Part shown: positions 9,391 through 31,313 of the stretch, one piece after another | Layout: each line of letters begins with the position of its first letter | How positions within the stretch are numbered: position 1 is the stretch's first letter | IMG/VR virus record: IMGVR_UViG_3300012920_000053 | Span: 1 to 53,144 of that record | Direction: 5' to 3' (one strand) | Source: a virus | DNA length: 53,144 nt | The notes under the pieces: model-generated | What the model was told of the DNA's origin: nothing | The model's input: the letters and a program-made list of their open reading frames with translations, nothing else | Databases searched by the model: none | Made by a program: the position numbers and the translations under genes

Positions 9391-9400
9391 TATAAATAGT
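9391..9400 (-). promoter_or_regulatory. ACTATTTATA element before the 115-aa gene and tape measure
   Basis: On the coding strand the element reads AAGACTATTTATAATG and lies about 20 bases before the start codon and immediately after the terminator hairpin at 9413-9445. A new transcript must begin here if that terminator works, which supports a promoter role. The exact T4 late octamer TATAAATA is present only on the opposite strand. Confidence 0.5.
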
Positions 9401-11243: not shown

Positions 11244-14183
11244 TTAATCATCGAATGATGCCCCTGTTCTCGTAATATTGAAATCAATTGCAATGTATTC
11301 GATTGCTCTGGCTGGCTTCAAGAAGATTTTTGCGTAAACAATATTTCTATCAACCAAATCTGGGGTTGTTGTTGTTTCGTCTAAAACAACTTTGAATTCT
11401 GTCAGTCCACCACCAGATTGAACAGCAGACAAGAATCTATTAGTAGGGCCTGTAAATCTAGCCCAAGTAACATTTGTGTTTTGATCGAACAAGATATTGT
11501 TTGCAATTTTTGAAATCTCTCTCTTGACATAAATCAACATTCTTCTAACATTAATTCTGTCCAAGGCAGAAGGAGTTACTTGCAAAGTTTTCTGTCCGAA
11601 AATTACAATACCTTCTGATGGGAATGTAGCAATAGGGTTGATGTTTGCTTCGTACAGCGTGTCTCTATCCTTCGAGCGAACCCTTTCAGAGACTCCAACA
11701 ACCGGCATACCCGCAGAACCTTCTGTAAGTCCGCCGCGATTGAATCCCGCAGGGGCAAACCATACTTGAGATTTTGCTTCAGATGAAGCGAAGGTTCCCA
11801 AAGCTACCACTGAAGGTGGTACCCAAACTAGCTGGCCAGAGATGTTATCCCTTATTTGAACCCATGGATAATAAGCACAGGCGTAAGAACTATCAATTCC
11901 CCTTACAGTCAAGCTATTTACTGCCTCACGGACCGATCCAAGTCTATCTTGGAAAGAAAGATATGTCTTACCTTCAGCTGGAGGAAAATAAACATTTTGC
12001 AAGTCGATAACAGCAAGTGAATCTGCTCTATCCTCACACGTATCAATAATATGTTGTGTTAGAGAAGAATTTGTGAGACCAGGCATGGTGATCAGGTTAG
12101 ATTGTACCATTTCAGGATCTGCAACAGTATCAATTGCTCTTTTGATTGTGTTATAAACAGAGTTTGATGTATCTAAATCGCCCGTTTCCATTAGAGAGTT
12201 TCTAACTGGGTCAGCTTCTGTTACATCGAAACCATCAACTCCTCCATAAAATGCTGTAGTAAGTCTATTAAATCCAGCATCCAGAATTGATTTCCAAGAA
12301 CTTCCAGTTGCCGTTGTTGAAATTCCTTCTGCTCTAGATCCAGACATCCAATATACTTCTGCACCAGTCGACCCGGTGACAACAACATCATCTAGGGAGA
12401 CAATATATTGCCAACTAAGATGCTTGGTGGTTGCACCACTAGTCCAAGATGATCTAGAGATTTGTTCTGACGTGTCTACACGAGCTACCCCATCTGGGTT
12501 CGCTCTTAGGTAATCACCATAGCCAGAGTCGAATCTTGATGCGCCGGCTGAAATAGCATTATCTAGACCAAAGTATGCATCTCTAATATCTGCCAAACCT
12601 CCGTCTGAAGCTGAAATTCTCGTTGCGAGAGAAGGCGCGGACATTCTTAGTTCTGCACCATCAGGAATCCACAAGTTTCCATCATTTGGCTCGACTACTT
12701 GAGGCATATCTGATGCCCCTTCAAAGAATGCCTCGGACGCAATAGATGATCCACTAGTATATGTAACACCACCTAGTGGCTCCAGTTTTAGAGGACCAAA
12801 CGTTCCGAAAGGCAAATACCTTGGATCAGTTTGCGCGCTGTCCACTAGTTGGCTCATAATTACTCTAATATATTTAGATTGGTTATTGTATTCTCCATAT
12901 GTTCTTAGTCTGGCCTGGTTGTAGTCAAACTCTTGCCATTTTGTTCCAATTCTTCTGGCAATATAATTTTCTGAATTAGGATCAAGATTTACATTACTAA
13001 ATCTTTCTACAACCTGTACAACGTTATCTCTGTCCGACGCTCTCCTGATTAAGACTGTGAAAGAACCATACTTATTTGACTTGTTCGTCGATGCCTTGAT
13101 ATCTGAAATTGAAACTTTTAAGTTTTCCTGTACCCAAGTTCCCTCATGAAGAGATACAAACTTGAAAAGTCTCTGCATGTCGAGAGGACTGTAAGAGCCG
13201 GTTATTGTACCCAAATCTTGCGAGAAGAACCATCCAGTTTCTGGAGCTTCTGCACTAATTTGCATATCATCTCTCTGGATATTTGGCGTGCCGGTGCTTT
13301 CTTGGGCCACCAACATAGCTAAAACAGATTGGCCAGAGGCCGTTGATAGGTTTTGGATAACTTCTGCCACATCTCTTTCGAATGTCTCACCTAGCCAATA
13401 ATACTGCTCACCTTTTTTCAAGTTCGCGGTATCTGTCAGGTCTCTATTTGTCAAGATTGGGTTAGTATTCAATACATTTCTAATATATTTATCAGAGTCC
13501 CTATCCAAATTGAAGGCTGTAGTATAAACTACATTATTTGAAGTGTCGTGTATCTGTAGAGTGCTTTCCCCGTAAGTTCCGATTGTCTCAAAAAGAGCTG
13601 CTGAACCAGAGGCTGTCCGATCTGGAGATGGGAGTGTTGACGCTGCACCATTTGAGGGTGCCACTGTACCAGTAAGCGTAAGGGCGCCCTGGTCGCAATA
13701 AATCGTCGCTGCCAAAGAGCCTGTATGCTTACCATTACTGGAAGAAGCAAAAAGGTAGAGAGCATAGGAGCCTCCATTATCCGCCACACTAGTGTTGAAT
13801 CGATTAGAACATTTCCAACCAGCAAGAGCTTCATCAGTTGTATCTGCTCCCGGATGTGCCTCTCCCAAGAGCCTCATTACTGTCACTGGGCCTACTCCGG
13901 CATTCAGGTGTGCCATAGCTGCATAGGATGCATAAGTTGGGCCGATTAGGTTGCCTTCTCTCCATACATCACCATCAGGTCCGCCGCCACCGGGGATTGG
14001 ATTACCAAATACTTCCACAAATTCTGCTTGCGACCTGACTGTAACAGGTCTCATGCCTGGACCCATTCTGGTCCTTCCGATTACAACTGGGCCTACACCC
14101 AATTCATCTGCCGGTAATTGAGAATTATCAATTTCGTTTAAGAAAACGCCCGGTGAAACAAATTTAAACTTCTTAACTGACAT
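11244..14183 (-). CDS. Tail sheath protein, T4 gp18-like (979 aa)
   Basis: Starts at ATG 14183 with AAGGAG nine bases upstream. The N-terminus (KFVSPGVFLNEIDNSQLP, then VVIGRTRMGPGMRPV) and the C-terminal domain (DRINVRRMLIYVKREISKIANN, ending RAIEYIAIDFNITRTGASF) are the conserved contractile-sheath handshake regions. The protein is about 320 residues longer than T4 gp18 (659 residues); the extra sequence lies in the centre, roughly residues 130-560, and includes beta-rich, Ser/Thr-rich blocks likely to form surface domains. It is preceded by its own late element and leader hairpin and followed by the tube gene. Confidence 0.92.
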   Translation of the reverse strand: MSVKKFKFVSPGVFLNEIDNSQLPADELGVGPVVIGRTRMGPGMRPVTVRSQAEFVEVFGNPIPGGGGPDGDVWREGNLIGPTYASYAAMAHLNAGVGPVTVMRLLGEAHPGADTTDEALAGWKCSNRFNTSVADNGGSYALYLFASSSNGKHTGSLAATIYCDQGALTLTGTVAPSNGAASTLPSPDRTASGSAALFETIGTYGESTLQIHDTSNNVVYTTAFNLDRDSDKYIRNVLNTNPILTNRDLTDTANLKKGEQYYWLGETFERDVAEVIQNLSTASGQSVLAMLVAQESTGTPNIQRDDMQISAEAPETGWFFSQDLGTITGSYSPLDMQRLFKFVSLHEGTWVQENLKVSISDIKASTNKSNKYGSFTVLIRRASDRDNVVQVVERFSNVNLDPNSENYIARRIGTKWQEFDYNQARLRTYGEYNNQSKYIRVIMSQLVDSAQTDPRYLPFGTFGPLKLEPLGGVTYTSGSSIASEAFFEGASDMPQVVEPNDGNLWIPDGAELRMSAPSLATRISASDGGLADIRDAYFGLDNAISAGASRFDSGYGDYLRANPDGVARVDTSEQISRSSWTSGATTKHLSWQYIVSLDDVVVTGSTGAEVYWMSGSRAEGISTTATGSSWKSILDAGFNRLTTAFYGGVDGFDVTEADPVRNSLMETGDLDTSNSVYNTIKRAIDTVADPEMVQSNLITMPGLTNSSLTQHIIDTCEDRADSLAVIDLQNVYFPPAEGKTYLSFQDRLGSVREAVNSLTVRGIDSSYACAYYPWVQIRDNISGQLVWVPPSVVALGTFASSEAKSQVWFAPAGFNRGGLTEGSAGMPVVGVSERVRSKDRDTLYEANINPIATFPSEGIVIFGQKTLQVTPSALDRINVRRMLIYVKREISKIANNILFDQNTNVTWARFTGPTNRFLSAVQSGGGLTEFKVVLDETTTTPDLVDRNIVYAKIFLKPARAIEYIAIDFNITRTGASFDD

Positions 14184-14267: not shown

Positions 14268-14648
14268 TTATGATTGTTGAGATATATTCTTCTTTTTTAG
14301 AATCCCAGGCTTCCCAGTACCTTTGGGATATTCGAACTCGTAGTCATCTTTTTTGTCTCCTAAGAATTTTTCTTTTATTTCTTCGATCCTATCTTCTTTC
14401 ACTTTTTTCAACTTTTCGACGACTTCGAAGTATTTCCTCTCTTTCATTTTCGATTCAAATAAGAATTCCTTATAATCTTTGAAAGTTTTTTCTACAGCAA
14501 GATCTAAGTTTACTGGAATAATGGCTATTTCTTTCGGAACCTCTATTTGATCCGGAAGTTGGATTTCCTGAACTTCTTGTTGAACTTCTTCTTCTTCTTC
14601 AATTTGTTCATCTTTTGTAGAAAAAAGGCTAACTATTTTTTTGAACAT
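14268..14648 (-). CDS. Uncharacterised acidic/basic helical protein (126 aa)
   Basis: Starts at ATG 14648 with GAGGGG ten bases upstream, right after a terminator and late element, so it heads its own transcript with the sheath. Residues 14-45 are strongly acidic (EEEEEVQQEVQEI); residues 55-105 form a Lys/Glu helix (KMKERKYFEVVEKLKKVKEDR); the C-terminus is basic and Gly/Pro-containing. There is no membrane segment. No family is recognised. Position between fibre and sheath suggests a late role, possibly fibre assembly, but that is not shown. Confidence 0.65.
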   Translation of the reverse strand: MFKKIVSLFSTKDEQIEEEEEVQQEVQEIQLPDQIEVPKEIAIIPVNLDLAVEKTFKDYKEFLFESKMKERKYFEVVEKLKKVKEDRIEEIKEKFLGDKKDDYEFEYPKGTGKPGILKKKNISQQS

Positions 14649-14747: not shown

Positions 14748-17700
14748 TTAGCTTAGTGGGAAAGTTGGGATTGCTGCACCCCATTCTTCCTCGGTCGCGA
14801 TATCGTTAGAAGCGTCAGAAACCTTGGTAGCAAAGCTTGAAGGATCAGTCATTGTGCCAGTAAGGAAATCACTGCTATTTACGATAACACTAGAAGAAAG
14901 AGAAATGTCTTTCTTATAGACAACCACCATTCTATCGCCAGTAAGAAGGCCGAAGGTCATCGTAATGGCTTGTGGTGATGCTACATCGAAGTTGTAATCA
15001 AACCCTTCTGTCAGAATTTGTCCATTCAAGGAAACAAGCTGAATTTCAGATGCGTTATATTGAATGGCGTGTGTTCCGCCAGCAGCGATATCAGATGTCA
15101 GAACTTCCGTTTCTTGACAAATCATATCTCTAACTAGGGCAATATCACCTCTGACGTCTGCAACAACAGCATTAGTACCCGAAACTACAGTTTCAACAAG
15201 GCCTTCAACTTCATCTTGCATTGCCTGAACTTCAGACTGGAGAGTTTCCACATCACTCATCATCTCTAGAGCAACATCATGTGTTACCTGAAGACCATAT
15301 TCAGATGCCTGAAGTCTCTCGTCCATTTTCTTCAGAGCGTCACCGAAATCAACAGCGAGATGAAGATCTGAACTCTGAAGTGGCCACATTTGATCTTCTG
15401 TGTGAGCAACAAAGGAGATTCCTCCGACTGCACCAGAAACATAATTGTCACCAAACATATCCTTCATTTCTTGATCGTGCTGCAATTCATTAGCATCTAC
15501 ATCAGCTTGAAGATTTGAGATAGCCAAATCAGCATCTGCCTCGTTCTGATCAACGTCAGACTGAAGAGCTACCAAATCAGCTGCGACTGCGCCAGAAAGA
15601 CTAGTCACATCGCCTTGCAAGTTTGTAATTGATGTAATGATGTTAGTATCAGCAAGCTCGTAAGCAGCAACCAACTCAACTAATTGGTCTAGGTCGACAC
15701 CCGAACCAGAGAGGATTGCGTCAATACGGCCTCTTTCAACAGCAATTGCTGCATCAGCGTCGGCTTCGTTCTGATCGACGTCAGATTGAAGAGCTGCCAA
15801 ATCAGCTGCCACAGCACCCGAGAGTGAAGTAATGGCCGCATCGGCATCCGCCTCATTTTGATCTACGTCAGACTGAAGTGCTGCTAAGTCAGCCGCGAAT
15901 GCACCCGAGAGTGAAGTAATGGCTGCATCTGCATCTGCCTCGTTCTGATCGACATCCGCTTGGAGCGCTGCCAAATCAGCTGCCACAGCACCCGAGAGTG
16001 AAGTTATTGCTGCATCAGCGTCAGCTTCATTCTGATCGACATCCGCTTGGAGTGCTGCTAAGTCTGCTGCTACTGCGCCCGAAAGCGAAGTGATTGCTGC
16101 ATCAGCGTCAGCCTCATTTTGGTCTACGTCAGACTGAAGTGCTGCCAAGTCTGCTGCTACTGCGCCCGAAAGCGAAGTGATTGCTGCATCTGCATCTGCT
16201 TCATTTTGATCAACGTCAGATTGTAGCGCGGTGATGGTAGCCATCAATGCACCTGACAACGCTGTATCAGCGGCAATATAATCGGAAACAATTTGATTAT
16301 CTCTTGAGATATAGTCCGTTTCCATTGCCAACAGGTCTGCTGCTACTGCACCCGAGAGTGAAGTAATCGCGGCATCGGCATCTGCTTCGTTTTGGTCAAC
16401 GTCCGACTGAAGTGCTGCTAAGTCTGCTGCCACTGCACCCGAGAGTGAAGTAATGGCCGCATCGGCATCAGCTTCATTTTGGTCGACATCAGACTGAAGA
16501 GCTGCTAAATCAGCTGCCACAGCACCCGAGAGTGAAGTGATTGCTGCATCAGCGTCGGCTTCATTTTGATCGACATCAGATTGAAGAGCTGCAAGATCAG
16601 CTGCGACTGCTCCGGAGAGCGATGTGATAGCTGCGTCTGCATCTGCTTCATTTTGATCAACATCAGATTGAAGTGCTGCCAAGTCAGATGCTACCGCTCC
16701 GGAGAGACTAGTTACATCACCTTGGAGGTTTGTGATAGAGGTAATAATATTGGTATCTGCCAACTCGTAAGCGGCAACCAATTCTACCAACTGATCAAGA
16801 TCAACACCCGAGCCAGAGAGGATTGCGTCAATACGACCTCTTTCAACTGCGATTGCTGCGTCTGCATCTGCTTCATTTTGGTCTACGTCAGACTGAAGTG
16901 CTGCTAAGTCAGCTGCCACTGCACCAGAGAGTGAGGTGATTGCTGCATCAGCGTCAGCTTCATTTTGGTCGACATCCGACTGAAGAGCTGCAAGGTCTGC
17001 GGCAACTGCACCAGAGAGTGAAGTAATTGCTGCATCAGCGTCAGCTTCGTTCTGATCAACGTCAGATTGAAGAGCTGCAAGGTCTGCGGCAACTGCACCC
17101 GAGAGTGAAGTAATGGCAGCGTCAGCGTCCGCTTCATTTTGATCAACGTCAGATTGAAGAGCTGCAAGGTCTGCGGCAACTGCACCCGAGAGTGAAGTAA
17201 TCGCTGCATCAGCGTCAGCTTCATTTTGGTCAACGTCAGATTGTAACGCACTAATTGTAGCCATCAAAGCACCAGAAAGTGCTGTATCGGCATTGGCAAA
17301 TTCCGTTCTGATCGAAGCGCGATCGGCAGCAGCCGAAGAAGAGAGATTAGTGATGTCACCACTCAATTCAAGATCTAGTGCCGCTAGACTGCTAGAAACA
17401 GATGAAGAAAGAGACAAAATATCTGCCGCGTTGTCATCAACGTTATCCTGAACACCAGAGATAGCTGTGTCTAACAATAGATCTGCATTGTGCAAGCTAG
17501 TTGCAGCAGTAATATATCTTGCTGAAGCGTGAGCTGCATAGGATCCCGTAAGGCCGATTGCATCGATAGCTTCATCAATTTCCGTGTTAGCATCAGCAAT
17601 TTCTTGATCAACGTATGCTTTGTTTACAATCTGATCACCACTGATGAACTGAGAGTGTGCAAGTGAATACTTGATAACTCTAGGGTCGAATGCTGGAGTG

Positions 17701-20700
17701 GTATATCTCGCGAGTTGCGCAGTATTGAGGCCTTCAGCAGCAATCATGTCTTCCATGGTTTCATATGTGACACCAAATGCGTCTACGAAGCCAAAGTCGA
17801 CTTGAATTGCTGCATCAATTCTAGTTCTGGTAGGCACAACACCGCCGCTTCCGCCAGAGGTTGAAAGATTGACTTCATCAGACAAAAGTTCGCCAACTGT
17901 CATTACTTCAGACTCACAATCGAAATCAAAGTATACACCAGGCTTACCGTCAGTGTCAAGATAAGAAGCTGCGGCAGTAGTTACAGAAACTGAAGCTAAA
18001 ACTGCTGAATCTACATCACTTTCGTCACGCAAATACAGTTCAATTACTCCAGAACCATCACCAACAAGTGTACCAATACCGTCTCCATAAGAGTCTCTAA
18101 TTAGGATCTTGTGACCAACTAGGTCAGATCCTTCTGTAGCATGGAAGTTAGGATTAGGAATCGAAACTGTACCAAATACAAATTCGATTGGGTCCCCTTG
18201 AACCGAATTGGTGGAAGTAGCCGATGCGATAATGTTGTCCGAGCCATCAAGAATAAATGCTTGAAGCTCTGAATGGTACTCGTCCAAAACAAGAGTAGGC
18301 ATCTTCATTACTAGTCTTTTAGCGACTACTGTTGCAACAGTAGGTACTCCTGTTAATCCATCCCAACTTTCAGGGTTATAGGAGGCATTCGTGACACCCA
18401 ACATGAAAGGAAAGAGTACCGAAGATGGGGCGGGCGCAAAACCTTGATTGTAATAATCTTCAGTCCATGGAATCAAACTTCCTGGGTTTGAAGGGTCGTC
18501 CATAAACAGACCTACCTCCATAGTCGTTGAGCCAGGTGTATAATTGGCAAGAATCGCATAACCAAGCAAGATGGCATCATCTACCGCAGCCATTGTGGTA
18601 TTATCTGCTGGATTAGCATGGAATCCGCCGAATTCTGGATTGGTATCTCTGTAAAAGATAGGCAACATCTCTCCGCCGTTTGCGTTGGCTGCATCAAATA
18701 CACTCTTGAGGTACAGAATTTTCTGCTCACTTTCGGCGGGAGATCCTAGGAATTGAATCTGTGGGTTGGCAAAAGTGCTTCCAAACGCAAATCCGATACC
18801 AGAAATTGGTGTACCAACAGATGGAAGTCCTGGAATTCCCATAACGCTGTAGGTGATATTTGAGTCTGCTAACCAGTGAGGATTTGGAAAGACTCCGGCG
18901 TCAGTGTCGATATCGGCCATTTCAGCTTCCGAAATATCACCGATGAAGAACATCGAATCAGCTTCGAAGTCACCGCTGGCCACATACGAACCGGCGCCAA
19001 ATGGGTGATTTCCGAAGTTCAAGCTGTAGTCTGAATTGAAATCCAGAAAAGCCATATCAGAAACACCACCAGCTGCATCTGGATCTGTCATGAAGATGAC
19101 TGTATTCTCACCATTAGCGTGAGTAATGACCAATTTATAATCTGCCCAATCATATGTAGGCGAATCAACTAAAGTTGGAGTTTCAACTACAGCAGAAAAA
19201 ACTGGCAATTGTGTCCAGTCATTCGGTGCTTTGTCAAAATAAGATTCCCAATCCGGAATATTGTTTCCAGAAGGGGAGACATGTGCGAATTTAACATTCA
19301 TGGTTGCGCCGGTGTCTGCGATTGACGCATCCCAGCTTTCAAGGCCTAAAACCATGTTCACTTCCATAGTATGGATGTGCGGACCGCGTTTTCTGGCCAA
19401 GACGTGATATTTATAACTCATATTGTTTTCTCCTTGGGTTATTTGCCCGTTATTGTTATATAAGTTTGTCTCATTGTAAAGAGAAGTAATTTCTCCCGCT
19501 GCTAGGGCGCGATTCCAGATTCTGGTATCGTCCTGTGACAAAGCAGCTTGCCCGGGGGCATTTCCGGGTAGAGTCAACTCTGGAATTACATGGTAATTCA
19601 TGGTAATTGGCTGTCCCGGGAACTGGACAATTTGCCCAGTTTGCGGATATTCTCCTGCGAGAACACCGTCTACATATATTCTGACCATTGAGCCATCATA
19701 GGTACCAACTACGTGGTACCATACTTCCGTATCTATTGAGCCAGCGCTCAAATCGTCTCCTTGATGGTCTACAGCAGAAATATAGCCATTTTGTGTTTGT
19801 ATTTGGAAATAAAACTTTCCAGAATTATTTATCGGCGAGTTAGCAGGAACTACTCCTTCATTCTGGCGAACACGTCCGAGGACCCATGACATGTGATCAG
19901 ACGATGGTGTAGCATTGTGGCCATTGGCTGTAATGAAGTAATCATAATGATTACCTAAAGCACTATACTTAATCCAAGTTGATACAGTCATTGCGTCTGT
20001 TGGGACAAGATCTTCGCTGTAAGGAACGCTTACATAATCTGTACCGTTTCCAGGGTATTCAAACCACTCATTACCGCTATTGGCGACATAAGTTTCCGCT
20101 CCAGTTGGAGATGTAGCATTGTGATTTCCTGTTTCATCTTGAAGATTTCCGTCAAATAACCACTTCGCTACCAAGCCATCTTCGAGCGAGAGAACGCCGT
20201 TGTTATTATAGGAATCAGCAATTTGCTGACTCGTCGCGACACCCTCATACACTCTCAAATCTCTAACTTCTGCTGCGAATTCTTGATTCGCAGGTCCATT
20301 AAGGACATCGATAGCTGTAGGTGGTGTCGCGTTTGCGGTTGGATCAACAGTGCCAATGGAAACTCCATTAGCAAAATATTCCATAGTCGATCCGTCATAA
20401 GTGACAGTGACTAAATGCCATGTGTCTGCCACCTTTAGGGGATCTCCTGCCGCGAGGCTTAGGCGCGAAGAGTCTGGTGTCAAATTGCTCGTCCAGTTAC
20501 CCGCGCCGATTCTGCCATAATGTGCGTCCAAGACATATCTATATCCCGAATTCTGCAAATATAGATTGGCCCACTGCTGTGTTCCATCTAAATTAACATT
20601 TTTAACCCAGATATTTATCGTATATGTCGCTGGAAGCGAAATAGAACTAGAAAGACCTGACAGGGTGCCTAAATGTTCTTCTTGTAAAGATATCATATAA

Positions 20701-20801
20701 GATTTCTCCGTGGGATTTTTACTTTCCCTATTATCCTTAAATGTTTTTGTTGAATTTTTATAACGTATAAACTCCTCAAAAACGCCAATAAAAGAAGGCA
20801 T
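14748..20801 (-). CDS. Giant tail fibre/adhesin with LamG domains and coiled-coil repeats
   Basis: The frame opens at a TTG (20843), but ATG 20801 has GAGGAG just upstream and is preferred, giving 2017 residues; a later ATG near 20699 is also possible. Residues about 30-215 and 230-450 are two LamG/concanavalin-like domains (WHLVTVTYDGSTMEYFANGVSIG; WYHVVGTYDGSMVRIYVDGVLAG), typical of glycan binding. Residues 461-1010 are beta-rich and preceded by an internal SD-ATG at 19421. Residues about 1183-1764 carry 17 copies of a DVDQNEADAD unit, mostly at a 29-residue period, predicted to be a trimeric coiled-coil shaft. The C-terminal 250 residues are helical then beta-rich. It probably binds the host surface; it sits between the PrkA cassette and the sheath. 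Confidence 0.8.
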   Translation of the reverse strand: MPSFIGVFEEFIRYKNSTKTFKDNRESKNPTEKSYMISLQEEHLGTLSGLSSSISLPATYTINIWVKNVNLDGTQQWANLYLQNSGYRYVLDAHYGRIGAGNWTSNLTPDSSRLSLAAGDPLKVADTWHLVTVTYDGSTMEYFANGVSIGTVDPTANATPPTAIDVLNGPANQEFAAEVRDLRVYEGVATSQQIADSYNNNGVLSLEDGLVAKWLFDGNLQDETGNHNATSPTGAETYVANSGNEWFEYPGNGTDYVSVPYSEDLVPTDAMTVSTWIKYSALGNHYDYFITANGHNATPSSDHMSWVLGRVRQNEGVVPANSPINNSGKFYFQIQTQNGYISAVDHQGDDLSAGSIDTEVWYHVVGTYDGSMVRIYVDGVLAGEYPQTGQIVQFPGQPITMNYHVIPELTLPGNAPGQAALSQDDTRIWNRALAAGEITSLYNETNLYNNNGQITQGENNMSYKYHVLARKRGPHIHTMEVNMVLGLESWDASIADTGATMNVKFAHVSPSGNNIPDWESYFDKAPNDWTQLPVFSAVVETPTLVDSPTYDWADYKLVITHANGENTVIFMTDPDAAGGVSDMAFLDFNSDYSLNFGNHPFGAGSYVASGDFEADSMFFIGDISEAEMADIDTDAGVFPNPHWLADSNITYSVMGIPGLPSVGTPISGIGFAFGSTFANPQIQFLGSPAESEQKILYLKSVFDAANANGGEMLPIFYRDTNPEFGGFHANPADNTTMAAVDDAILLGYAILANYTPGSTTMEVGLFMDDPSNPGSLIPWTEDYYNQGFAPAPSSVLFPFMLGVTNASYNPESWDGLTGVPTVATVVAKRLVMKMPTLVLDEYHSELQAFILDGSDNIIASATSTNSVQGDPIEFVFGTVSIPNPNFHATEGSDLVGHKILIRDSYGDGIGTLVGDGSGVIELYLRDESDVDSAVLASVSVTTAAASYLDTDGKPGVYFDFDCESEVMTVGELLSDEVNLSTSGGSGGVVPTRTRIDAAIQVDFGFVDAFGVTYETMEDMIAAEGLNTAQLARYTTPAFDPRVIKYSLAHSQFISGDQIVNKAYVDQEIADANTEIDEAIDAIGLTGSYAAHASARYITAATSLHNADLLLDTAISGVQDNVDDNAADILSLSSSVSSSLAALDLELSGDITNLSSSAAADRASIRTEFANADTALSGALMATISALQSDVDQNEADADAAITSLSGAVAADLAALQSDVDQNEADADAAITSLSGAVAADLAALQSDVDQNEADADAAITSLSGAVAADLAALQSDVDQNEADADAAITSLSGAVAADLAALQSDVDQNEADADAAIAVERGRIDAILSGSGVDLDQLVELVAAYELADTNIITSITNLQGDVTSLSGAVASDLAALQSDVDQNEADADAAITSLSGAVAADLAALQSDVDQNEADADAAITSLSGAVAADLAALQSDVDQNEADADAAITSLSGAVAADLAALQSDVDQNEADADAAITSLSGAVAADLLAMETDYISRDNQIVSDYIAADTALSGALMATITALQSDVDQNEADADAAITSLSGAVAADLAALQSDVDQNEADADAAITSLSGAVAADLAALQADVDQNEADADAAITSLSGAVAADLAALQADVDQNEADADAAITSLSGAFAADLAALQSDVDQNEADADAAITSLSGAVAADLAALQSDVDQNEADADAAIAVERGRIDAILSGSGVDLDQLVELVAAYELADTNIITSITNLQGDVTSLSGAVAADLVALQSDVDQNEADADLAISNLQADVDANELQHDQEMKDMFGDNYVSGAVGGISFVAHTEDQMWPLQSSDLHLAVDFGDALKKMDERLQASEYGLQVTHDVALEMMSDVETLQSEVQAMQDEVEGLVETVVSGTNAVVADVRGDIALVRDMICQETEVLTSDIAAGGTHAIQYNASEIQLVSLNGQILTEGFDYNFDVASPQAITMTFGLLTGDRMVVVYKKDISLSSSVIVNSSDFLTGTMTDPSSFATKVSDASNDIATEEEWGAAIPTFPLS
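15510..17253 (-). repeat. Coding tandem repeats of the fibre shaft (87-base unit)
   Basis: Seventeen copies of a DVDQNEADAD-containing unit, mostly spaced 29 residues (87 bases), are arranged in blocks. A longer module (IAVERGRIDAILSGSGVDLD and onward through VELVAAYELADTN) occurs twice, at about 15600-15750 and 16690-16850. Protein copies are almost identical, but synonymous positions differ between copies. The repeats are inside one open frame, so they are a structural shaft, not an intergenic array. Confidence 0.9.
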
Positions 20802-20868
20802 ATCTCCTCTATTGGAATTGTATGTATTTCGGCGGAAACCCAAAAGACCAAAAAAATAAATATTTTTT

Positions 20869-20904
20869 TTAAAAAAATAATCCTCACAAAATTTATTGTG
20901 AGGA
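20869..20904 (-). terminator. Terminator after prkA
   Basis: An 11-base perfect stem, AATCCTCACAA (20877-20887) with TTGTGAGGATT (20894-20904), has loop AATTTA. On the minus strand it is followed by A then seven T. It closes the transcript that carries neck genes and the YeaH-SpoVR-PrkA cassette. Confidence 0.85.
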
Positions 20905-20935
20905 TTTGAATATATGATCGATTTATTTATCTTGT

Positions 20936-22879
20936 TTAGCTATCACGCCACAAATTATTAGATGCATACTTTATAATTTCGTTGGCTGAGTCTTCGCTAT
21001 AACCGTAATTGTCAATCAAGGTTTGCACCATTTCATTATATTTCTTCTGCTGTTTCTTATCTCTGGACTTGGACTTCGTAACAATCCTTGAAATCTCACG
21101 AACAGATGTCAACAGTTTATTTTCAATAGCTTCCTTGAGGGGTCCATAAGAGGTCCAGTCAATCTTCTCCTTTTTTCTCAATTTGGAGAACATGTAGGCT
21201 GTTATGTCTGCTCTAAAGTTTTCTCTTGCCGACCCAACGATTCCAATCTGCTCTTCGATTGAGGTCAAGAAACTTTCGTCTGCATTCATTTCTTCTTTGG
21301 TCGTCTTATCCTTAACTTTTGTTCCGTTCACATATGCCTCTGCGTGATCGAGGTAATTGTCGAACAAAGATTCTGCTTGCTCTTGATAAGCGGAAACGAA
21401 TGCCTTTGTGATTTCTTTCTCAAGGATTTTCAAATATTCATCATGAAGCTCTTTCTGGAGAAAAGAAAGATATTTTTCTCTTAGATCCTCGACAACCACT
21501 TGCTCTTTTACTTGCTTGATTAGTGCATCTCGGATAGAGATTGGCGTAACCATGTTATTATCAGAGTCTGCCAAAGCTGCGTCAATTGCTTTCATAATAA
21601 ATCTAGTTGAAATTCCTGTCATTCCTTCGTCGCGGACTTCGTCGCGCAAGTCATTGATATCAATTTTCTTGATATAGCCCTTCTCTACAATATTTTGGCC
21701 ATTGTAGATCTTCATCTTAGTCATTGGATCAACTTTATTTGATGTCTTTAGTCTAGATAGTACGGCAAACATGGCCGCGATTTCCAGAGTGTGGGGAGCA
21801 ATATGTGCGTCAAAATCTGATTCTTCTAACATTTTATTATAAATTTTCTGTTCTTCGTCAACTTCCAGGCAGTAGGGAACGTTTACTCTAACAATTCTGT
21901 CAAGAATAGCTTCGTTTGTATTTTCAGACTTGAATTTATTCCATTCCGCTTCGTTACAATGAGCTAAAATAACTCCGTCAAAATAAATCATGGCGCCCTT
22001 TCCTGGGCTTGGAACGGCCTTCTCCTGCGTTGCAGTAATCATTGTGTGTAAGAACTCGATTTCATTCTTGAACACCTCCACAAACTCAACTATGCCCCTA
22101 TTTCCAACGTTAAACGCACCATTCAAACTCAAGGCTCGTGGGTCATCTTCTGGATATAAATCTAGTTTGGAGATGTCTTCCGAGCCAATCAAAATACTTG
22201 TATCTTGGGTGTTAGCATCCATCGGAGGAACCACTCCAACGCCTCGCCTACCTCTTATGGAAAAAGAAGTTTCCTTTACCTTGAAGGACATATAGTCTCC
22301 ATCAAGTTCTTCCAGGAGTTTGTGTCTACAAACTGGACATAGGTCTCCTTCGATTTTTACACCATATAGCTCTTTAAATCTATCTCGAAGCCCACGAGGA
22401 ATTAGGTGTAAGGGATTTTCGTTGATCGGACAGCCATCTAAAGCATACAGCGGGCCTGCACCCTCTAGCGCGCGCTTAATGTGTTCAACAAGGGCCGACT
22501 TACCGGCACCTACCGGACCCAGTAATAATAAAACCTGACGGCTTTCTTCGCCTTTCATGGCTGCCGAGTGTAGATATCTCATGACTTTAACAAGAGATCT
22601 TTCCATTCCAAAAAATTTATTTTGAAAGTAGTCGTATGTTCTTATCTCGTCACCATTGAATAGGTTGTTACATCTAGTATCCTCTTCGGACATTCTAGTG
22701 ATTCCGTGTTTAGTGATTGCCTCGTAAAGTCTCTTATGAGCCAAAACAGCCACTTCTGGCCTGCCCTCAAACAACTCTAAGAATTCAGAAAAAGTTCCAT
22801 GGAATTTCTCTTTCTTGCTTCCTTTTTTGTGTTCTTCGGCAATTTGTAAAAATTTATTTGTTTTTGATTCGTGTGTCAT
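20936..22879 (-). CDS. prkA: PrkA/YeaG-family AAA+ protein (serine kinase or ATP-dependent protease family)
   Basis: The 647-residue length matches E. coli YeaG (644). Walker A is GPVGAGKS at residues 121-128. Family signatures follow: GCPINENPLHLIPRG (149-163), CPVC (181-184), RGIVEFVEVFK, ATQE, an AHCNEAEWNKF block, DRIVRVNVPYCLEV, and GISTRFIMKAIDAAL in the C-terminal domain. All expected landmarks are present, so the protein is probably active. PrkA proteins are reported as stress/sporulation Ser kinases and, in Bacillus, as AAA+ proteases. It starts one base after spoVR ends and is followed by a terminator. In bacteria it is encoded with YeaH/YhbH and SpoVR, as here. Substrate in infection unknown. 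Confidence 0.95.
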   Translation of the reverse strand: MTHESKTNKFLQIAEEHKKGSKKEKFHGTFSEFLELFEGRPEVAVLAHKRLYEAITKHGITRMSEEDTRCNNLFNGDEIRTYDYFQNKFFGMERSLVKVMRYLHSAAMKGEESRQVLLLLGPVGAGKSALVEHIKRALEGAGPLYALDGCPINENPLHLIPRGLRDRFKELYGVKIEGDLCPVCRHKLLEELDGDYMSFKVKETSFSIRGRRGVGVVPPMDANTQDTSILIGSEDISKLDLYPEDDPRALSLNGAFNVGNRGIVEFVEVFKNEIEFLHTMITATQEKAVPSPGKGAMIYFDGVILAHCNEAEWNKFKSENTNEAILDRIVRVNVPYCLEVDEEQKIYNKMLEESDFDAHIAPHTLEIAAMFAVLSRLKTSNKVDPMTKMKIYNGQNIVEKGYIKKIDINDLRDEVRDEGMTGISTRFIMKAIDAALADSDNNMVTPISIRDALIKQVKEQVVVEDLREKYLSFLQKELHDEYLKILEKEITKAFVSAYQEQAESLFDNYLDHAEAYVNGTKVKDKTTKEEMNADESFLTSIEEQIGIVGSARENFRADITAYMFSKLRKKEKIDWTSYGPLKEAIENKLLTSVREISRIVTKSKSRDKKQQKKYNEMVQTLIDNYGYSEDSANEIIKYASNNLWRDS

Positions 22880-22880
22880 G

Positions 22881-24182
22881 TTAAAATTCCCAAGGTTCCC
22901 CTTCTATAATAGTTGTAAAGCAGACTTCGTCGTCCCACAGAGAGCATATTTGTTCATATACTCTGTTTGCATATGATAATTCAAGATCACGCCCATCATG
23001 TTCGTGCTCGATATAAAGTGTATTTGTCTTTTTATCAAAATCGCTAACATAAACGACAGGAACTCCTTTAAGTCCTGTATTCCTAATTAGATTGTCCCTT
23101 ACGCTTTTCCACCCTTCTTCGTCAGAAATTTCAGAAATAGTGTAATTATCTGTCATATTCTCATATGAGTAACTGAATAAGTTTAAGTCTCTACAAATTT
23201 CTTCTGTCAAATATTTTCTTATGAAAGATTCATCGTTGTGTATCTCTCGAACAGACTTACATTCTTCAAATCCGTGCTTTTCTTCTATGTCTTTGAAAAT
23301 TGTGTAACCTAGGTGATAAGGATTTACCCTCCCGAGTATTGGGCGTACAACCTGATTGTGAGTTTTCAAAAAAGATAAATGATACTTGTCTGGCAATTCT
23401 AGATCCTTCATTATCTTTTCATGAATCATCACTGCCCATCCCTCATTCATAATCTTAGTTTGTGCCTGTGGCATAAAATATAGTGATCTTTTTTCTACCA
23501 TTTCCATCAAATCTTGTTTCCAATCTTCAATTCCTCTGGCGTTTTTTCTAATAAAACCGATCAAATTATAATCTTTTTGAACCAAGCCGTTTTCAACATT
23601 TAGCAAGCCATTTGTCTTCTTGAAAAGATCTTTTTTTGCCTGATCCTCTGTTCTTCTTTTGATCCCCGGAGTTCTTGGAAGTTGATATTGGATGGAGTGA
23701 CATGCATCGATAACTTGCTCCACCTTATCGATTCCAATATTTGGATCTTCAATATACGCTTGTACTCGTTTTGCAGCAGACTTGAATCTAGATATGATAT
23801 TGGCAGGATCAGTCTCTTTGAACATTCTATTATTTTTGAAAAAATCAGAATGGCCGACACAATGAGACATGGTCAAGAGGTGGGTGCTCATTGGATTTTC
23901 AAGCATCAGATATGCAATACTGGGGTCACTATTAATAATCATTTCGTAAGGTAGACCTTCCATTCCTAAATTATATCTTGTTATTGTTCTTTCAAAATTC
24001 TTACCATATGACCAATGTCTATAATGCGTTGGTAAGCCAGTGTAGGCCATGGCGCCAATCATTTCATGATAATTCAAAATTTCATATTCTATGAGAAACC
24101 AGTCTAGGTCATATTTTTCTTTAGCTATTTTACAAATTTTATCATCCCACTCTTGCAATTCTTTGATACTCCAATCTTTCAT
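22881..24182 (-). CDS. spoVR: SpoVR/YcgB-family protein
   Basis: The start is ATG 24182, preceded by GGAGGAG three bases upstream and overlapping the yeaH stop as ATGA, giving 433 residues (Bacillus SpoVR 468, E. coli YcgB 510). The N-terminal family block is clear: DLDWFLIEYEILNYHEMIGA, LPTHYRHWSYGKNFER, YEMIINSDPSIAYLMLENP, and the hallmark CVGHSDFFKNN at residues 108-118. GRVNPYHLGYTIFKDIEEK lies in the centre. The C-terminal part (residues 300-433) is shorter than in bacterial homologues but includes the YVSDFDKKTNTLYIEHEHDGR beta segment. SpoVR is needed for spore cortex in Bacillus and linked to stress in other bacteria; biochemistry is unknown. Coupled to both neighbours. Confidence 0.95.
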   Translation of the reverse strand: MKDWSIKELQEWDDKICKIAKEKYDLDWFLIEYEILNYHEMIGAMAYTGLPTHYRHWSYGKNFERTITRYNLGMEGLPYEMIINSDPSIAYLMLENPMSTHLLTMSHCVGHSDFFKNNRMFKETDPANIISRFKSAAKRVQAYIEDPNIGIDKVEQVIDACHSIQYQLPRTPGIKRRTEDQAKKDLFKKTNGLLNVENGLVQKDYNLIGFIRKNARGIEDWKQDLMEMVEKRSLYFMPQAQTKIMNEGWAVMIHEKIMKDLELPDKYHLSFLKTHNQVVRPILGRVNPYHLGYTIFKDIEEKHGFEECKSVREIHNDESFIRKYLTEEICRDLNLFSYSYENMTDNYTISEISDEEGWKSVRDNLIRNTGLKGVPVVYVSDFDKKTNTLYIEHEHDGRDLELSYANRVYEQICSLWDDEVCFTTIIEGEPWEF

Positions 24183-25387
24183 GATTCTCCTCCAAAAAGC
24201 TCTCTGAAAGAAAGCCATATGTGATCGGGTTTGGTGATCTTTATTTTTTTGAATTTCTCGTCAACAATATGATTCAGTTTTCTCCACAAATTGGAAGCTT
24301 CTGAATTATTGTAACTATAGGATCTGTTCAAAAGGGTGTCTAATTCGGACTCTCTGTGTCCAAAAGGATCTATCTCCGCATAGCACATCATTTGATTTAT
24401 TTGCTTCAGTTCTGTAAACAGATCGATTACTTTTTCATCGTCAAACGACCAGTTTTCTCCATCTCCGGAATAAAAAGTATAAATGTTCCAACTAGAAGGG
24501 TGGTATCTTTTTGATATGATCTCCTTTTCTAGCTCTAAAGCAGTTGACATAACGGTACCTCCTGTTGAAGCTTTTTTGAAAAAATCGTCTTCAGTTACTT
24601 CTTTGGCATCAGTGGAGTGAGAAATAAAAACCACTTCTATGTTATTATATTTGTAATTCAAAAATTGATATAAAAGAAAATAAAAACTTCTTGCCATATA
24701 CTTCTTATCCTTACCCATGGAACCAGAAACGTCCATTAGAAAAAATATAACAGCAGAATTATTTTCTTCATGCTTTATTTTCATATGCTTATATTTTAGA
24801 TCATCTTTATGGAAAGGAAATCTCTCATCACCGCCCTCTTGATAGGCTCCAGAGGCAATTGCCATTTTTTTCCTGCGGATTTTTCTTTTTATAGTCTCTT
24901 TTTTAGAAAGCCTGGATCTCATGCCCTTTTTCCTGAATCCAGATCTTTTCAATTTTTTATGTTCTATAAACTTGAACTTTTTTCGTTCAAGATCTGGTAA
25001 CTCTAGATCCTGAAATAAATACTCTGCCAACTCTTCCAATGAAATTTCAACTTCGTAATATTCTTCGCCAGGATCCTTTGAACCTTTTTTGCCCTGGGCT
25101 TTTCCTTTTTTAGAGCCGCGACGGACAACCTGTCCTTTGGTAACATTCTTGTCACCAGCAGAACTAACTTTTTTATTGTCGCTGTTTTCTCCATATACAA
25201 GCTGATATTCTTTAATTCCTTTTACTGGAATTTTTACTTTCTTTTTGCCATCTTGGCCGATGATCGATTCATCCGCAACAACGTCTCTAATTCCCTCTCT
25301 CAAAGCTTTATCTATTTTTTGCTTATGTCTTTTTCTGTCAGCTGCTGACCTGTCTGCTATTGATTTATGTTCTCTAAAAATACTCAT
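24179..25387 (-). CDS. yeaH: YeaH/YhbH-family (DUF444) protein with VWA domain
   Basis: The ATG at 25387 with AGGAT eight bases upstream is chosen over a longer frame because MSIFREHKSIADRSAADRKR is the usual DUF444 N-terminus; this gives 402 residues (E. coli YeaH 427). Residues 1-110 are basic with a Lys/Gly-rich linker. A VWA fold begins near 210 with a complete MIDAS motif DVSGSMG (D219, S221, S223), followed by FISHSTDAKEV, a GGTVMSTAL metal-site loop and YTFYSGDGENW. In bacteria YeaH/YhbH is encoded with PrkA and SpoVR; VWA proteins often act as adaptors for AAA+ ATPases, so an adaptor role for PrkA is a fair inference. It follows the gp14-like gene by ten bases. Confidence 0.95.
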   Translation of the reverse strand: MSIFREHKSIADRSAADRKRHKQKIDKALREGIRDVVADESIIGQDGKKKVKIPVKGIKEYQLVYGENSDNKKVSSAGDKNVTKGQVVRRGSKKGKAQGKKGSKDPGEEYYEVEISLEELAEYLFQDLELPDLERKKFKFIEHKKLKRSGFRKKGMRSRLSKKETIKRKIRRKKMAIASGAYQEGGDERFPFHKDDLKYKHMKIKHEENNSAVIFFLMDVSGSMGKDKKYMARSFYFLLYQFLNYKYNNIEVVFISHSTDAKEVTEDDFFKKASTGGTVMSTALELEKEIISKRYHPSSWNIYTFYSGDGENWSFDDEKVIDLFTELKQINQMMCYAEIDPFGHRESELDTLLNRSYSYNNSEASNLWRKLNHIVDEKFKKIKITKPDHIWLSFRELFGGES

Positions 25388-25397
25388 TTGTTTTATC

Positions 25398-26327
25398 CTA
25401 AAAAATTTCTGCCAATGCAGTAAGAAATACAACTGTTAAATTTGAACCCGCCGTGATGGGAAAGTTTGATATTATTTCCCCATCTTTTACGTAAAAGTCT
25501 GTTACTCCGGGACTATCAGAGACACTCTGCAATATACCGTTGACAAATATCATAATTGTTGTGTAATCTATATCTCCCGAAATATCGAAAGAGTCATTGA
25601 TTGACGAACCTCCCGTGATAGTAGTAGCTAAAATTCCTGGCGCGGGGGCACCAAATTGCTGTGCCGAAAAGACAACTTTTGCAGCCGTCCCTGATCCACC
25701 TCCAGAGCCTCCAGAACCCCCAGAACCTCCAGAACCCCCAGAACCTCCAGAACCACCGGTTCCAGAACTCCCTTCTTCGGAAACCAACATAGAACCAGCA
25801 GAAAGTGCTGAAGAATAAGCTGCTGGAGAGAGCGTCTGTAAATCTATAAGCCCTTTTCTTGTTTTTATACATTTTGCCTGAATCTCGAACAAGTGGTCAA
25901 CTTGTCCAAACAGTTGTCTGCCATCCGTCAATGAGACTATTTCATAAAATCTATCTCCGTATTGGACATAATCACCTTCTCGGACATAGGTATCTTGATC
26001 CTGTAGAAGCCTTCTCTTATGAAATTTTACAGTTATGGTATTATCTTTGTCTAAGCCGTAATTTTTAGTTTGTGTGGTGATAGCTTCGAATTCTACGAGT
26101 CCATAAATTCTTATAGGTGGTAAAAAACACTTTTCTATAGCCTCTCCATACAACGGATGATAATTTGTAAACTCCCTAGAGACTGGAATATAGGCGATTT
26201 GCTGCCCTACAACCCTTTCCAAAAGCTCATCATTAACTTGCTTTACTAAGTTTCTTTCCTTCTCGCCCAAGAAAAGAGGAGGAGGGGGGTTCGATGGTCT
26301 TGTCCACTTGTTTTCATCATCTGACAT
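25398..26327 (-). CDS. Neck protein, T4 gp14-like, with Gly-Ser linker and extra C-terminal domain
   Basis: The 309-residue protein starts one base after the gp15-like gene. Residues 35-165 carry the gp14-type pattern: IAYIPVSREF, PLYGEAIEKCFLPPIRIYGLVEF, then TVKFHKRRL, REGDYVQYGDRFYEIVSL and FGQVDHLFEIQAKCIKTRKG. After about residue 185 comes a pure Gly-Gly-Ser linker, then a beta-rich domain of about 95 residues (GDIDYTTIMIFVNGILQSVS). T4 gp14 (256 residues) joins the filled head to the tail and has no such extension. The added domain could be a surface decoration or collar element. Neck assignment is by pattern and by its gp13 and gp15 neighbours. Confidence 0.65.
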   Translation of the reverse strand: MSDDENKWTRPSNPPPPLFLGEKERNLVKQVNDELLERVVGQQIAYIPVSREFTNYHPLYGEAIEKCFLPPIRIYGLVEFEAITTQTKNYGLDKDNTITVKFHKRRLLQDQDTYVREGDYVQYGDRFYEIVSLTDGRQLFGQVDHLFEIQAKCIKTRKGLIDLQTLSPAAYSSALSAGSMLVSEEGSSGTGGSGGSGGSGGSGGSGGSGGGSGTAAKVVFSAQQFGAPAPGILATTITGGSSINDSFDISGDIDYTTIMIFVNGILQSVSDSPGVTDFYVKDGEIISNFPITAGSNLTVVFLTALAEIF

Positions 26328-26328
26328 A

Positions 26329-27156
26329 TTATTTGAGGTCCTTTTTATCTCCCACGATCACTCTTTCGGGCGCAAACTTAAATTCTACAGCATTCTCTCT
26401 TACAGTTATCTTTGGTTGATTGTCATTTTTTCCAGAACCAACTAAATATCCTAAAATTTTCAAATTAATAACCGTAGTGAAGGATCTTTCTTCCTCTTGG
26501 AGATTTGAAATATTATTATCTAAAGAAAAATCATTTTCTATGAACCCCTCAAACTTATGGCCATCGCGGGTGATGAAAAAATTATTTATTTGACCTGGAT
26601 ACGTTATAAAGGGATTGAATATTTCGTTCATTTGCTGTTGATATTCTGTATTGATTGTTAGTTTATAATTTGCTACAACATATGTCGGCACTGGTGTTGT
26701 CATTGTTGTATATACAACTTTATTATTTTCAAAGGGAAAGGTTTGTTGTTTGAATTTCTTTTTAGCGTCGGCATTTGCAAAATTAGAGGTTTTTTCTTGC
26801 TTTATGACCCTTGCGGCAGTGATGGCGCCGCCTTTAGCATCGGGCCTACGTGGAATGTGTGACCAAGCAACACCCTTAAAGGAAGGGTCTTTAGTCAAAG
26901 ATACTCTTTCGACACTTATAGCCGGAAGTATAAATGTATCTTTTTTTCTCAAATCTTTATTATCCTTTATTTGGTAAGCTCGTTCTGGCATTGACCAAAT
27001 AAGTGGCACTTTTTTCCAACCTTCATTGGTTGTGCAAAAAATATCCAATTCTTCATTTAACCAATCATACAGAGCAAGATCAATAGTCTCAATTGTAGAC
27101 GGCATAAACTTTATTTCTTGAATAATTTCATCATTTTTTCTACTTTTGTCACTCAT
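26329..27156 (-). CDS. Tail terminator/sheath stabiliser, T4 gp15-like
   Basis: The 275-residue length is close to T4 gp15 (272). Starts at ATG 27156 with AGGAAA upstream. Features of the family are GWKKVPLIWSMPERAYQIKDN near residue 45, AISVERVSLTKDPSFKG near 80, a central beta strand pair (YVVANYKLTINTEYQQQMNEIFNPF), and ERSFTTVINLKILGYLVG near 230. gp15 forms the hexameric ring at the top of the contractile tail and binds the neck. The order here is gp13, gp15, gp14, not T4's 13-14-15. Confidence rests on motif resemblance and position. Confidence 0.65.
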   Translation of the reverse strand: MSDKSRKNDEIIQEIKFMPSTIETIDLALYDWLNEELDIFCTTNEGWKKVPLIWSMPERAYQIKDNKDLRKKDTFILPAISVERVSLTKDPSFKGVAWSHIPRRPDAKGGAITAARVIKQEKTSNFANADAKKKFKQQTFPFENNKVVYTTMTTPVPTYVVANYKLTINTEYQQQMNEIFNPFITYPGQINNFFITRDGHKFEGFIENDFSLDNNISNLQEEERSFTTVINLKILGYLVGSGKNDNQPKITVRENAVEFKFAPERVIVGDKKDLK

Positions 27157-28470: not shown

Positions 28471-28506
28471 TAAACAAACCCCCCTCCGAAAGTCGGAAAG
28501 GGGGGT
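28471..28506 (-). terminator. Terminator after the major capsid gene
   Basis: ACCCCCCT (28478-28485) pairs with AGGGGGGT (28499-28506), with an inner CCGA/TCGG stem and loop AAG. On the minus strand TTTGTTTATATAG follows, giving a U-rich tail. It separates the capsid gene from the neck genes. Confidence 0.8.
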
Positions 28507-30287: not shown

Positions 30288-31274
30288 TTATTTATGCGTC
30301 TTAATACCAGCTAAAATCTGCATCCTGTCCGTTACCGGAGAGGCTTCAGTTCTAACTTCTCTTCTAGGTAAAGTGGCAGAAGGTCTTTCGATGGTCTCAC
30401 GAAGTGATTGTGGATGCGCTTTACCTGATACACTTCCCACTGCGTTTTTAAGAGTTTCGAATATTACCTTTGCTTCCTCAATAGAATCTGATTTTGACAG
30501 CGCTTCGACAATTTTATTTTTTTGTCGCTCATTCAGGGAGTTGTCTGTCAACACCTTATTCGTGTAAACTAATCTAGCGTTAGAAAGATTAGTTTTATTG
30601 AAATTTTCTTTCAAGATCTGAAGTGCTTCCAGCATTTTGGCATTTTTTGCCTTGAGTTTATCATTTTGCTCGGAAAGCCTTTCTCCAGCTTGTGTTAATG
30701 CTTTTACTTGCTCTTGAGCTTCTGTAGCGGAGCGTCTTGCAAGTTCTAATTCTTCTTTGTAATCCATAATTGTGTCAGGAGTTCCTACCCAGCCACTTTT
30801 TTGAGGCGCGATATCAACAACCAATTCTTCAATTAGTTCGTCAAGATTATCGATAGTCACATCAGTGTCTTCCTCTTGGCCTTCTTGGAGTGCAACTTCG
30901 ATGGATGCATCTTCGATTTCTGCTGGCGGCTCAAGGCCTTCCGGAGAAGCGGTAGAGTGAGATGAAGGTTGACCTTCCTCTTCTTCTGTTAGCTTTTCCG
31001 CCAAAGAAATGAGAGAATCCAAATCTAATTCGATTTTCTCATCCTCTTCTAAGGACTCTTGCGGAGTAGGATCAGCTGCCAATGGTAAGCTATCCTGCAA
31101 ATTCGACGAAGATGCTAAATCTTCGGAGTTATCATCCTCCTGTTCCAACAAAGTTTCAACTGCTTCGCGGATATCGGTAGAATATTTATCTAAAATGGCA
31201 GATTCAGCGTTTTTGACTGCTGCCTCTCGTAATGCATTTGCATCAATAATTGCTTGTTCTAGTAGTGAAGACAT
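30288..31274 (-). CDS. Prohead scaffold/core protein, T4 gp22-like
   Basis: The 328-residue acidic, helical protein ends 17 bases before the capsid gene, the position of gp22 in T4. Starts at ATG 31274 with AAGGGAA upstream. Residues 1-150 are Glu/Asp-rich with many L-x-E and I-x-E sequences suited to cleavage by a gp21-type protease. Residues 170-250 form a coiled coil (KEELELARRSATEAQEQVKA). The C-terminus is basic (RRE, ending ILAGIKTHK), as expected for a scaffold that contacts capsid protein. Sequence similarity to gp22 is weak, so the call rests on composition, order and neighbours. Confidence 0.75.
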   Translation of the reverse strand: MSSLLEQAIIDANALREAAVKNAESAILDKYSTDIREAVETLLEQEDDNSEDLASSSNLQDSLPLAADPTPQESLEEDEKIELDLDSLISLAEKLTEEEEGQPSSHSTASPEGLEPPAEIEDASIEVALQEGQEEDTDVTIDNLDELIEELVVDIAPQKSGWVGTPDTIMDYKEELELARRSATEAQEQVKALTQAGERLSEQNDKLKAKNAKMLEALQILKENFNKTNLSNARLVYTNKVLTDNSLNERQKNKIVEALSKSDSIEEAKVIFETLKNAVGSVSGKAHPQSLRETIERPSATLPRREVRTEASPVTDRMQILAGIKTHK

Positions 31275-31303: not shown

Positions 31304-31313
31304 AATAAATAGT
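31304..31313 (-). promoter_or_regulatory. ACTATTTATT element before the scaffold gene
   Basis: Coding strand reads TTAAACTATTTATTTATG, 29 bases before the scaffold ATG. It could drive scaffold and major capsid expression as one unit ending at the terminator near 28471. Confidence 0.45.

Follow-up and report, generated by a model that had tools for sequence, protein, structure and literature searches.

A complete YeaH-SpoVR-PrkA cassette within the structural operon of a marine phage lineage

The three genes at the locus

The virus record IMGVR_UViG_3300012920_000053, which comes from a marine T4-like virus, was analysed as a single stretch of 53,144 bases (the window) and has every assigned gene on the minus strand, carries all three members of the bacterial PrkA (YeaG), YeaH/YhbH and SpoVR/YcgB stress system as adjacent and co-directional genes:

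24179-25387, minus strand: YeaH/YhbH (DUF444) von Willebrand factor A (VWA) protein, 402 amino acids; PF04285, E = 9.3e-107
22881-24182, minus strand: SpoVR, 433 amino acids from the ATG at 24182; PF04293, E = 1.9e-115, model positions 1-404 of 407
20936-22879, minus strand: PrkA (YeaG) AAA+ protein, 647 amino acids; AAA_PrkA PF08298, E = 1.5e-145, and C-terminal domain PF06798, E = 4.1e-80

A sequence-only reading of the window had claimed that this set is complete and that its genes are intact and coupled to one another, and Pfam matches, motifs and the preservation of near-invariant columns bear this out. Each of the three proteins matches its family with an E-value below 1e-106, and the motifs named in that reading are all present. 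In YeaH, the match covers the full DUF444 model and includes the metal-ion-dependent adhesion site (MIDAS) of VWA proteins (DxSxS...T...D) as D219-x-S221-x-S223 (DVSGS, residues 219-223), T278 and D309, all five positions being invariant in 14 aligned proteins, those of Thermus phages included. SpoVR matches its family model over nearly the full length and retains the family-invariant residues as well as the intact family motif HCVGHSDFFKNN. PrkA has an AAA+ domain with the Walker A motif GPVGAGKS (G121-S128), followed by a complete PrkA C-terminal domain, both matching nearly the full models. With respect to columns that are at least 97% conserved across 85-93 bacterial homologues, the window copy keeps 73 of 74 in PrkA, 41 of 45 in SpoVR and 35 of 36 in YeaH.

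The longest open reading frame for SpoVR (22881-24218, minus strand, 445 amino acids) extends further upstream. However, the true start most likely lies at 24182 and not at 24218, because the ATG there overlaps the YeaH stop codon TGA as GGAGGAGAATC-ATGA and other viral SpoVR proteins begin at the same residue. The overlap of SpoVR start and YeaH stop is preceded by GGAGGAGA, and a single base separates the SpoVR stop (22881) from the PrkA ATG (22879). The resulting gene order, YeaH-SpoVR-PrkA, differs from the bacterial order PrkA-YeaH-SpoVR, of which it is a circular permutation.

The comparisons below show that the cassette is complete and intact, evolves under purifying selection and is co-inherited, that near relatives can dispense with it and that, as a unit, it does not depend on its context. 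It has the attributes of an auxiliary phage module, i.e., cellular homologues, absence from the same locus in near relatives, and intact genes.

Viral relatives and the insertion site

Scans of IMG/VR recovered at least 121 SpoVR and at least 143 PrkA relatives on contigs, the largest of which measures 293 kb. At 93 of the 105 non-redundant viral loci all three genes are full-length; most of the 12 others are truncated by contig ends, and at L023 the YeaH frame is broken next to a broken Ad2 gene, possibly by an assembly error. All complete marine viral loci share the order YeaH-SpoVR-PrkA, with the three genes on the same strand. When the window is compared with contigs whose PrkA is 83-94% identical, synonymous divergence (dS) is saturated in nearly every pair, and nonsynonymous divergence (dN) of PrkA amounts to 0.04-0.13.

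The surroundings of the trio are of at least four kinds. In the window's lineage (context A) neck genes are followed by the trio, fibre and sheath genes; on jumbo-type contigs (context B) a divergent GroEL relative comes after PrkA and precedes a PhoH-PIN gene; in context C the trio shares its contig with a pyridoxal phosphate (PLP) enzyme and a phosphomannomutase-like gene; and in context D it lies on the strand opposite to its neighbours. Outside the window's lineage it is not part of a recognised structural operon and is often encoded on the opposite strand. Found in at least four genome contexts, inverted ones included, the trio therefore behaves as a self-contained portable unit.

The GroEL-like neighbour in context B matches GroEL structures with E = 4e-37 when the profile is built without true GroELs. 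Such divergent proteins of 370-480 amino acids, most without a Pfam match, are encoded directly behind PrkA at L065:13656-14981 and about 45 more loci, and full-length GroEL genes lie near the trio in L062, L064 and L075. Another contig, L160 (NHDW01000006.1, 305,838 bases), is filed in the Methylococcaceae metagenome-assembled genome (MAG) TMED69 and resembles a jumbo phage of the trio-carrying group. It was considered and rejected as a bacterial donor with viral gene order, since its neighbouring genes match jumbo-phage families gene by gene, making it a phage contig in a MAG.

In the window, the trio is preceded by the genes for an Ad2 head-tail adaptor, a gp15-like protein and a 309-residue protein, and is followed by those for a fibre-like protein, a 126-residue protein and the tail sheath. 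The flanking features are:

28479-28503, minus strand: intrinsic terminator between the major capsid gene and Ad2, upstream boundary of the putative transcription unit
26329-27156, minus strand: gp15-like tail-sheath stabiliser, left flank of the hyperplastic region; PF16724, E = 4.6e-4, syntenic in relatives
25398-26327, minus strand: unassigned protein of 309 amino acids abutting YeaH upstream, conserved at the insertion boundary
20879-20906, minus strand: intrinsic terminator 30 nucleotides past the PrkA stop, AATCCTCACAATAAATTTTGTGAGGATT-ATTTTTTT
14748-20843, minus strand: fibre-like protein of 2031 amino acids, right flank; N-terminal part LamG-like by our own reading, with coiled repeats
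11244-14183, minus strand: tail sheath (gp18-like), right boundary of the hyperplastic region; phrog_23, E = 1.5e-66

An insertion between neck genes and fibre/sheath genes that adjoin in relatives, as had been proposed, is upheld; the label 'neck' can safely be used for Ad2 and is plausible for the gp15-like gene, a weak call with a PF16724 match under the Pfam gathering score, whereas the gene directly abutting YeaH is unassigned. Among the capsid matches listed, from which no share of trio carriers can be derived, relatives with a 60-76% identical capsid protein have no trio, the sheath gene coming directly after the neck genes at a distance of 60-120 bp. The site is empty in L247 at 76% capsid identity, and in L300 it is occupied by fibre genes, again without the trio. 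SpoVR is absent from twenty relatives (contigs of up to 185 kb) and PrkA from all nine of these that were checked, long contigs of 185 kb, 159 kb and 107 kb lacking both genes altogether. In a capsid tree, a single clade (support 96) contains the 15 trio carriers along with two empty relatives, and the distribution requires at least three changes, for instance a gain and two losses. The possibility that the trio stands in for a CobS/MoxR-like AAA+ protein was rejected, as such a gene is present in phages with and without the trio.

By its position between gp15 and the gp18 sheath gene, the site corresponds to the g15-g18 hyperplastic region of the T4-like structural module, which receives host-derived genes in cyanomyoviruses (PMC2984593). 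There, however, the region holds genes of photosynthesis and carbon metabolism, in contrast to the three-gene stress machine of the window, whose phage need not be a cyanophage.

As for transcription, the motif ACTATTTATA, which resembles a late promoter, has 16 matches with at most one mismatch against 5.2 expected, a number that no shuffle reached. Its copies, among them those at window positions 9391, 14232, 31810, 33387, 41236 and 49666 (minus strand), lie mostly ahead of virion genes, and it is likely to be a late-promoter motif of this phage. On the coding strand no copy occurs between those at 31304 (ahead of the gene at 30288-31274) and 14668 (ahead of the gene at 14268-14648), and hence none inside the cassette. 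The simplest arrangement would be a single transcript comprising Ad2, gp15, the gene at 25398, YeaH, SpoVR and PrkA. The fibre-like gene at 14748-20843 contains many near-identical repeats (LQSDVDQNEADADAAITSLSGAVAADLA), which probably encode a length-variable coiled shaft.

Origin of the viral copies

Searches for the three families in phage genomes and trees of all three genes, which the sequence-only reading had suggested, place the marine viral copies in one clade in each protein tree (Shimodaira-Hasegawa-like approximate likelihood-ratio test 100, 99 and 97) and do not scatter them among hosts. These are quick trees in which Thermus phages and one huge phage sit on long branches, so that their exact positions are uncertain. 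The marine clade adjoins Bacillota, Chloroflexota and a few other bacteria and is distant from the proteobacterial YeaG type; its closest bacterial relatives include Clostridia and other Bacillota as well as Chloroflexi and Pseudomonadota. Of the two histories that had been offered, recent transfer and a long association with phages, it is the latter that holds, in view of a single marine-virus clade per tree, saturated dS and low dN, and the virus-borne copies are a large, old family with long retention in marine viruses.

The window trio resembles the bacterial prkA-yhbH-spoVR or yeaG-yeaH-ycgB system in that all three genes are full-length and keep the motifs and nearly all family-invariant residues, and differs from it in being phage-borne, in its order and in its probable transcription together with virion genes. 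The order PrkA-YeaH-SpoVR is found in nearly all sampled bacteria, namely in all complete loci of the genome_contigs set and in most of 22 further Bacillota genomes, a few of which have the three genes apart. Two Bacillota genomes, G016 and G063 (L326, L327), have chromosomal genes in the order YeaH-SpoVR-PrkA, with a short SpoVR of 420 amino acids; the permuted order was therefore rejected as a hallmark of phages only.

The Thermus phages phiYS40 (YS40_056/057/059), phiLo, MN1 and Lalka8, which are likewise large, carry the same three genes in the same permuted order. However, theirs form a clade of their own near the Bacillus-type PrkA, lie in another genome context and encode a PrkA 34-37% identical to that of the window, which points to an independent capture. 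Uncultured phages of 595-642 kb also have genes of the three families, but in three of four these belong to the proteobacterial type and, where all three are adjacent, have the bacterial order. Because the Thermus phages have another source and three huge phages carry the proteobacterial operon, phages have captured the PrkA-YeaH-SpoVR machine at least three times (marine, Thermus and huge phages), and the permuted order likewise originated at least three times. The yeaG-yeaH pair at the very end of the record of Enterobacter phage LAU1 was not counted among viral copies, its PrkA and YeaH grouping in the proteobacterial branch, and was treated as host flank.

In several Bacillota, insertions of roughly 4-17 kb interrupt prkA within the AAA domain, at about residues 272-276 (G046:C15 27148-32454; G010:C10 45769-63726; G088, C13 and C113; L184 323-7095). 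These splits resemble sporulation genes interrupted by prophage or skin-like elements, for which spoVR is a known target (PMC6957869).

Possible functions and their meaning

The trio is a portable auxiliary cassette and not a core part of virion assembly, because relatives with the same neck and sheath genes lack it and in other phages it is found elsewhere, sometimes inverted. On balance, it probably serves host manipulation, steadying a starved host late in infection. According to this scenario, a phage ancestor would have captured the complete PrkA-YeaH-SpoVR machine once from a Bacillota-type operon and permuted it to YeaH-SpoVR-PrkA; the cassette would then have moved en bloc between marine T4-like and jumbo phages and, in the lineage of the window, have entered the g15-g18 hyperplastic region. 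Late in infection it might be expressed by read-through from the neck-gene transcript ending at its own terminator, a notion supported by the lack of a late-promoter-like motif in the cassette and by the terminator behind PrkA. PrkA would form an ATP-driven AAA+ remodelling ring, YeaH might bind PrkA or its clients via the MIDAS, and SpoVR could act as a metal-binding effector. The complex may remodel a few regulatory or metabolic proteins of the host, and this might keep a starved, slow-growing host alive and its proteostasis working during a long late phase, as with YeaG/YeaH in starved E. coli.

With respect to the individual proteins, the solved structure 9xip is that of a PrkA relative (E = 5e-151). 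The literature disagrees on whether PrkA is a kinase or a protease; in vitro, the PrkA of B. anthracis forms ATP-dependent oligomers, and its kinase and protease activities are undetectable or negligible (PMC13001217), in keeping with a remodeller. The GroEL relative adjoining PrkA in jumbo phages also suggests protein remodelling. In SpoVR, H119-x3-H123, N258-E259-G260-x-A262 and H266 (numbered by the 445-residue reading frame) are invariant in 60 viral and bacterial sequences, and H119, H123, E259 and H266 are predicted to form a metal site. A metalloprotease was considered and rejected: the site is gluzincin-like, but position 120 is C, V, A or G in all 60 sequences and never the catalytic Glu of HExxH, and the confident structure model (predicted local distance difference test score 88.4) has no significant match in the PDB, the best being a gluzincin of family M61 (E = 0.058). 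Against viral structures the model has one significant match, A0A3Q8HYQ4 (617 amino acids, E = 3.7e-10).

Several points weigh against a host-directed role. The starved host is a guess from family function, the clients of PrkA-YeaH-SpoVR are not known even in bacteria, and the phage PrkA shares only about 33-35% identity with the E. coli-type protein used in the starvation work. Also the nearest relatives without the trio, L247 and L300, are short contigs, and it could sit elsewhere in their genomes. Finally, the presumed co-transcription with virion genes would suit a virion role too, as would the portal, minor-head and terminase genes near the trio in some Thermus phages.

Such a virion role, in which the AAA+/VWA/SpoVR complex is a chaperone that folds or matures fibre, sheath or neck proteins, is possible and had been raised before as virion maturation. 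The place of the trio between neck and fibre/sheath genes in the structural operon of the window's clade speaks for it, as do the portal/minor-head and terminase neighbours in Lalka8 and phiYS40 and the divergent chaperonin next to PrkA in jumbo phages. It is nevertheless less likely than a role in the state of the host, and rather unlikely overall, because near relatives make the same kind of particle without the trio: same-capsid relatives have neck and sheath genes but no trio, long contigs lack SpoVR and PrkA, L300 retains fibre genes at the site, and in other phages the trio is inverted or away from recognised structural genes.

Somewhat less probable again is control of toxins or other host defences, by which the complex would let infection run to completion through damping of toxin-antitoxin or other abortive responses. 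While yeaG in E. coli leads to transcriptional repression of mqsRA and dinJ-yafQ (PMC4664914) and the cassette is portable and kept under selection, that effect is indirect and exerted at the level of transcription, and no defence-associated neighbours were identified, PADLOC not having been searched.

It is quite doubtful that the phage persists by using the cassette to induce a spore-like or dormant state in its host, an idea put forward for viruses of oxygen minimum zones (OMZ). The main text of a study of the eastern tropical North Pacific (ETNP) OMZ reports spoVR as the most abundant 'sporulation' gene of its viromes and reads it in this way (PMC8940887), and Clostridia and other Bacillota are the nearest bacterial relatives. 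However, these relatives also include Chloroflexi and Pseudomonadota, the trio is widespread in non-sporulators, and no integrase or sporulation regulator was identified within the annotated part of the window. The tie to sporulation made by the sequence-only reading is not supported either: the family is a general stress and stationary-phase system (E. coli, other proteobacteria, the archaeon Haloferax), and nothing indicates a sporulating host. An assembly chimera or host contamination, as might be suspected from bacterial-type genes within a phage contig, can be dismissed, given that both junctions are repeated in many independent contigs (e.g., L005/L085, L025, L024, L090) and in jumbo phage genomes, and that the viral clade has its own gene order.

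Turning back to the host-state cassette, it is conceivable, albeit tentative, that phages have repeatedly domesticated PrkA-YeaH-SpoVR as a standard late-infection 'cell-state holder', that the marine and Thermus order YeaH-SpoVR-PrkA is a functional, phage-specific rearrangement, and that jumbo phages have added a dedicated divergent chaperonin.

Already known are spoVR in OMZ viruses and all three genes in the records of Thermus phages. The ETNP spoVR, counted by Pfam in marine viromes, is probably the same gene; a term search of the main text of that study (PMC8940887) found PrkA/YeaG not named and no operon, phylogeny or genome position. For Ralstonia phage RsoM2USA, a table in the respective paper (PMC8504454) gives SpoVR and PrkA, and the likeness covers these two genes. 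Within the literature searched, no description was found of the complete set in marine phages, its single origin there, the permuted order, the g15-g18 insertion or the repeated capture.

PrkA/YeaG, YeaH and SpoVR rank with the most widely distributed bacterial proteins whose molecular function is not known, and the long joint retention by phages of all three, and only these, marks them as one minimal working unit, of which the phage trios are compact natural versions for biochemistry. For marine viral spoVR, the reading as a 'sporulation gene' gives way to that of a subunit of a stress machine, carried by viruses for which a sporulating host is not required, and viral control of starved host cells becomes directly testable.

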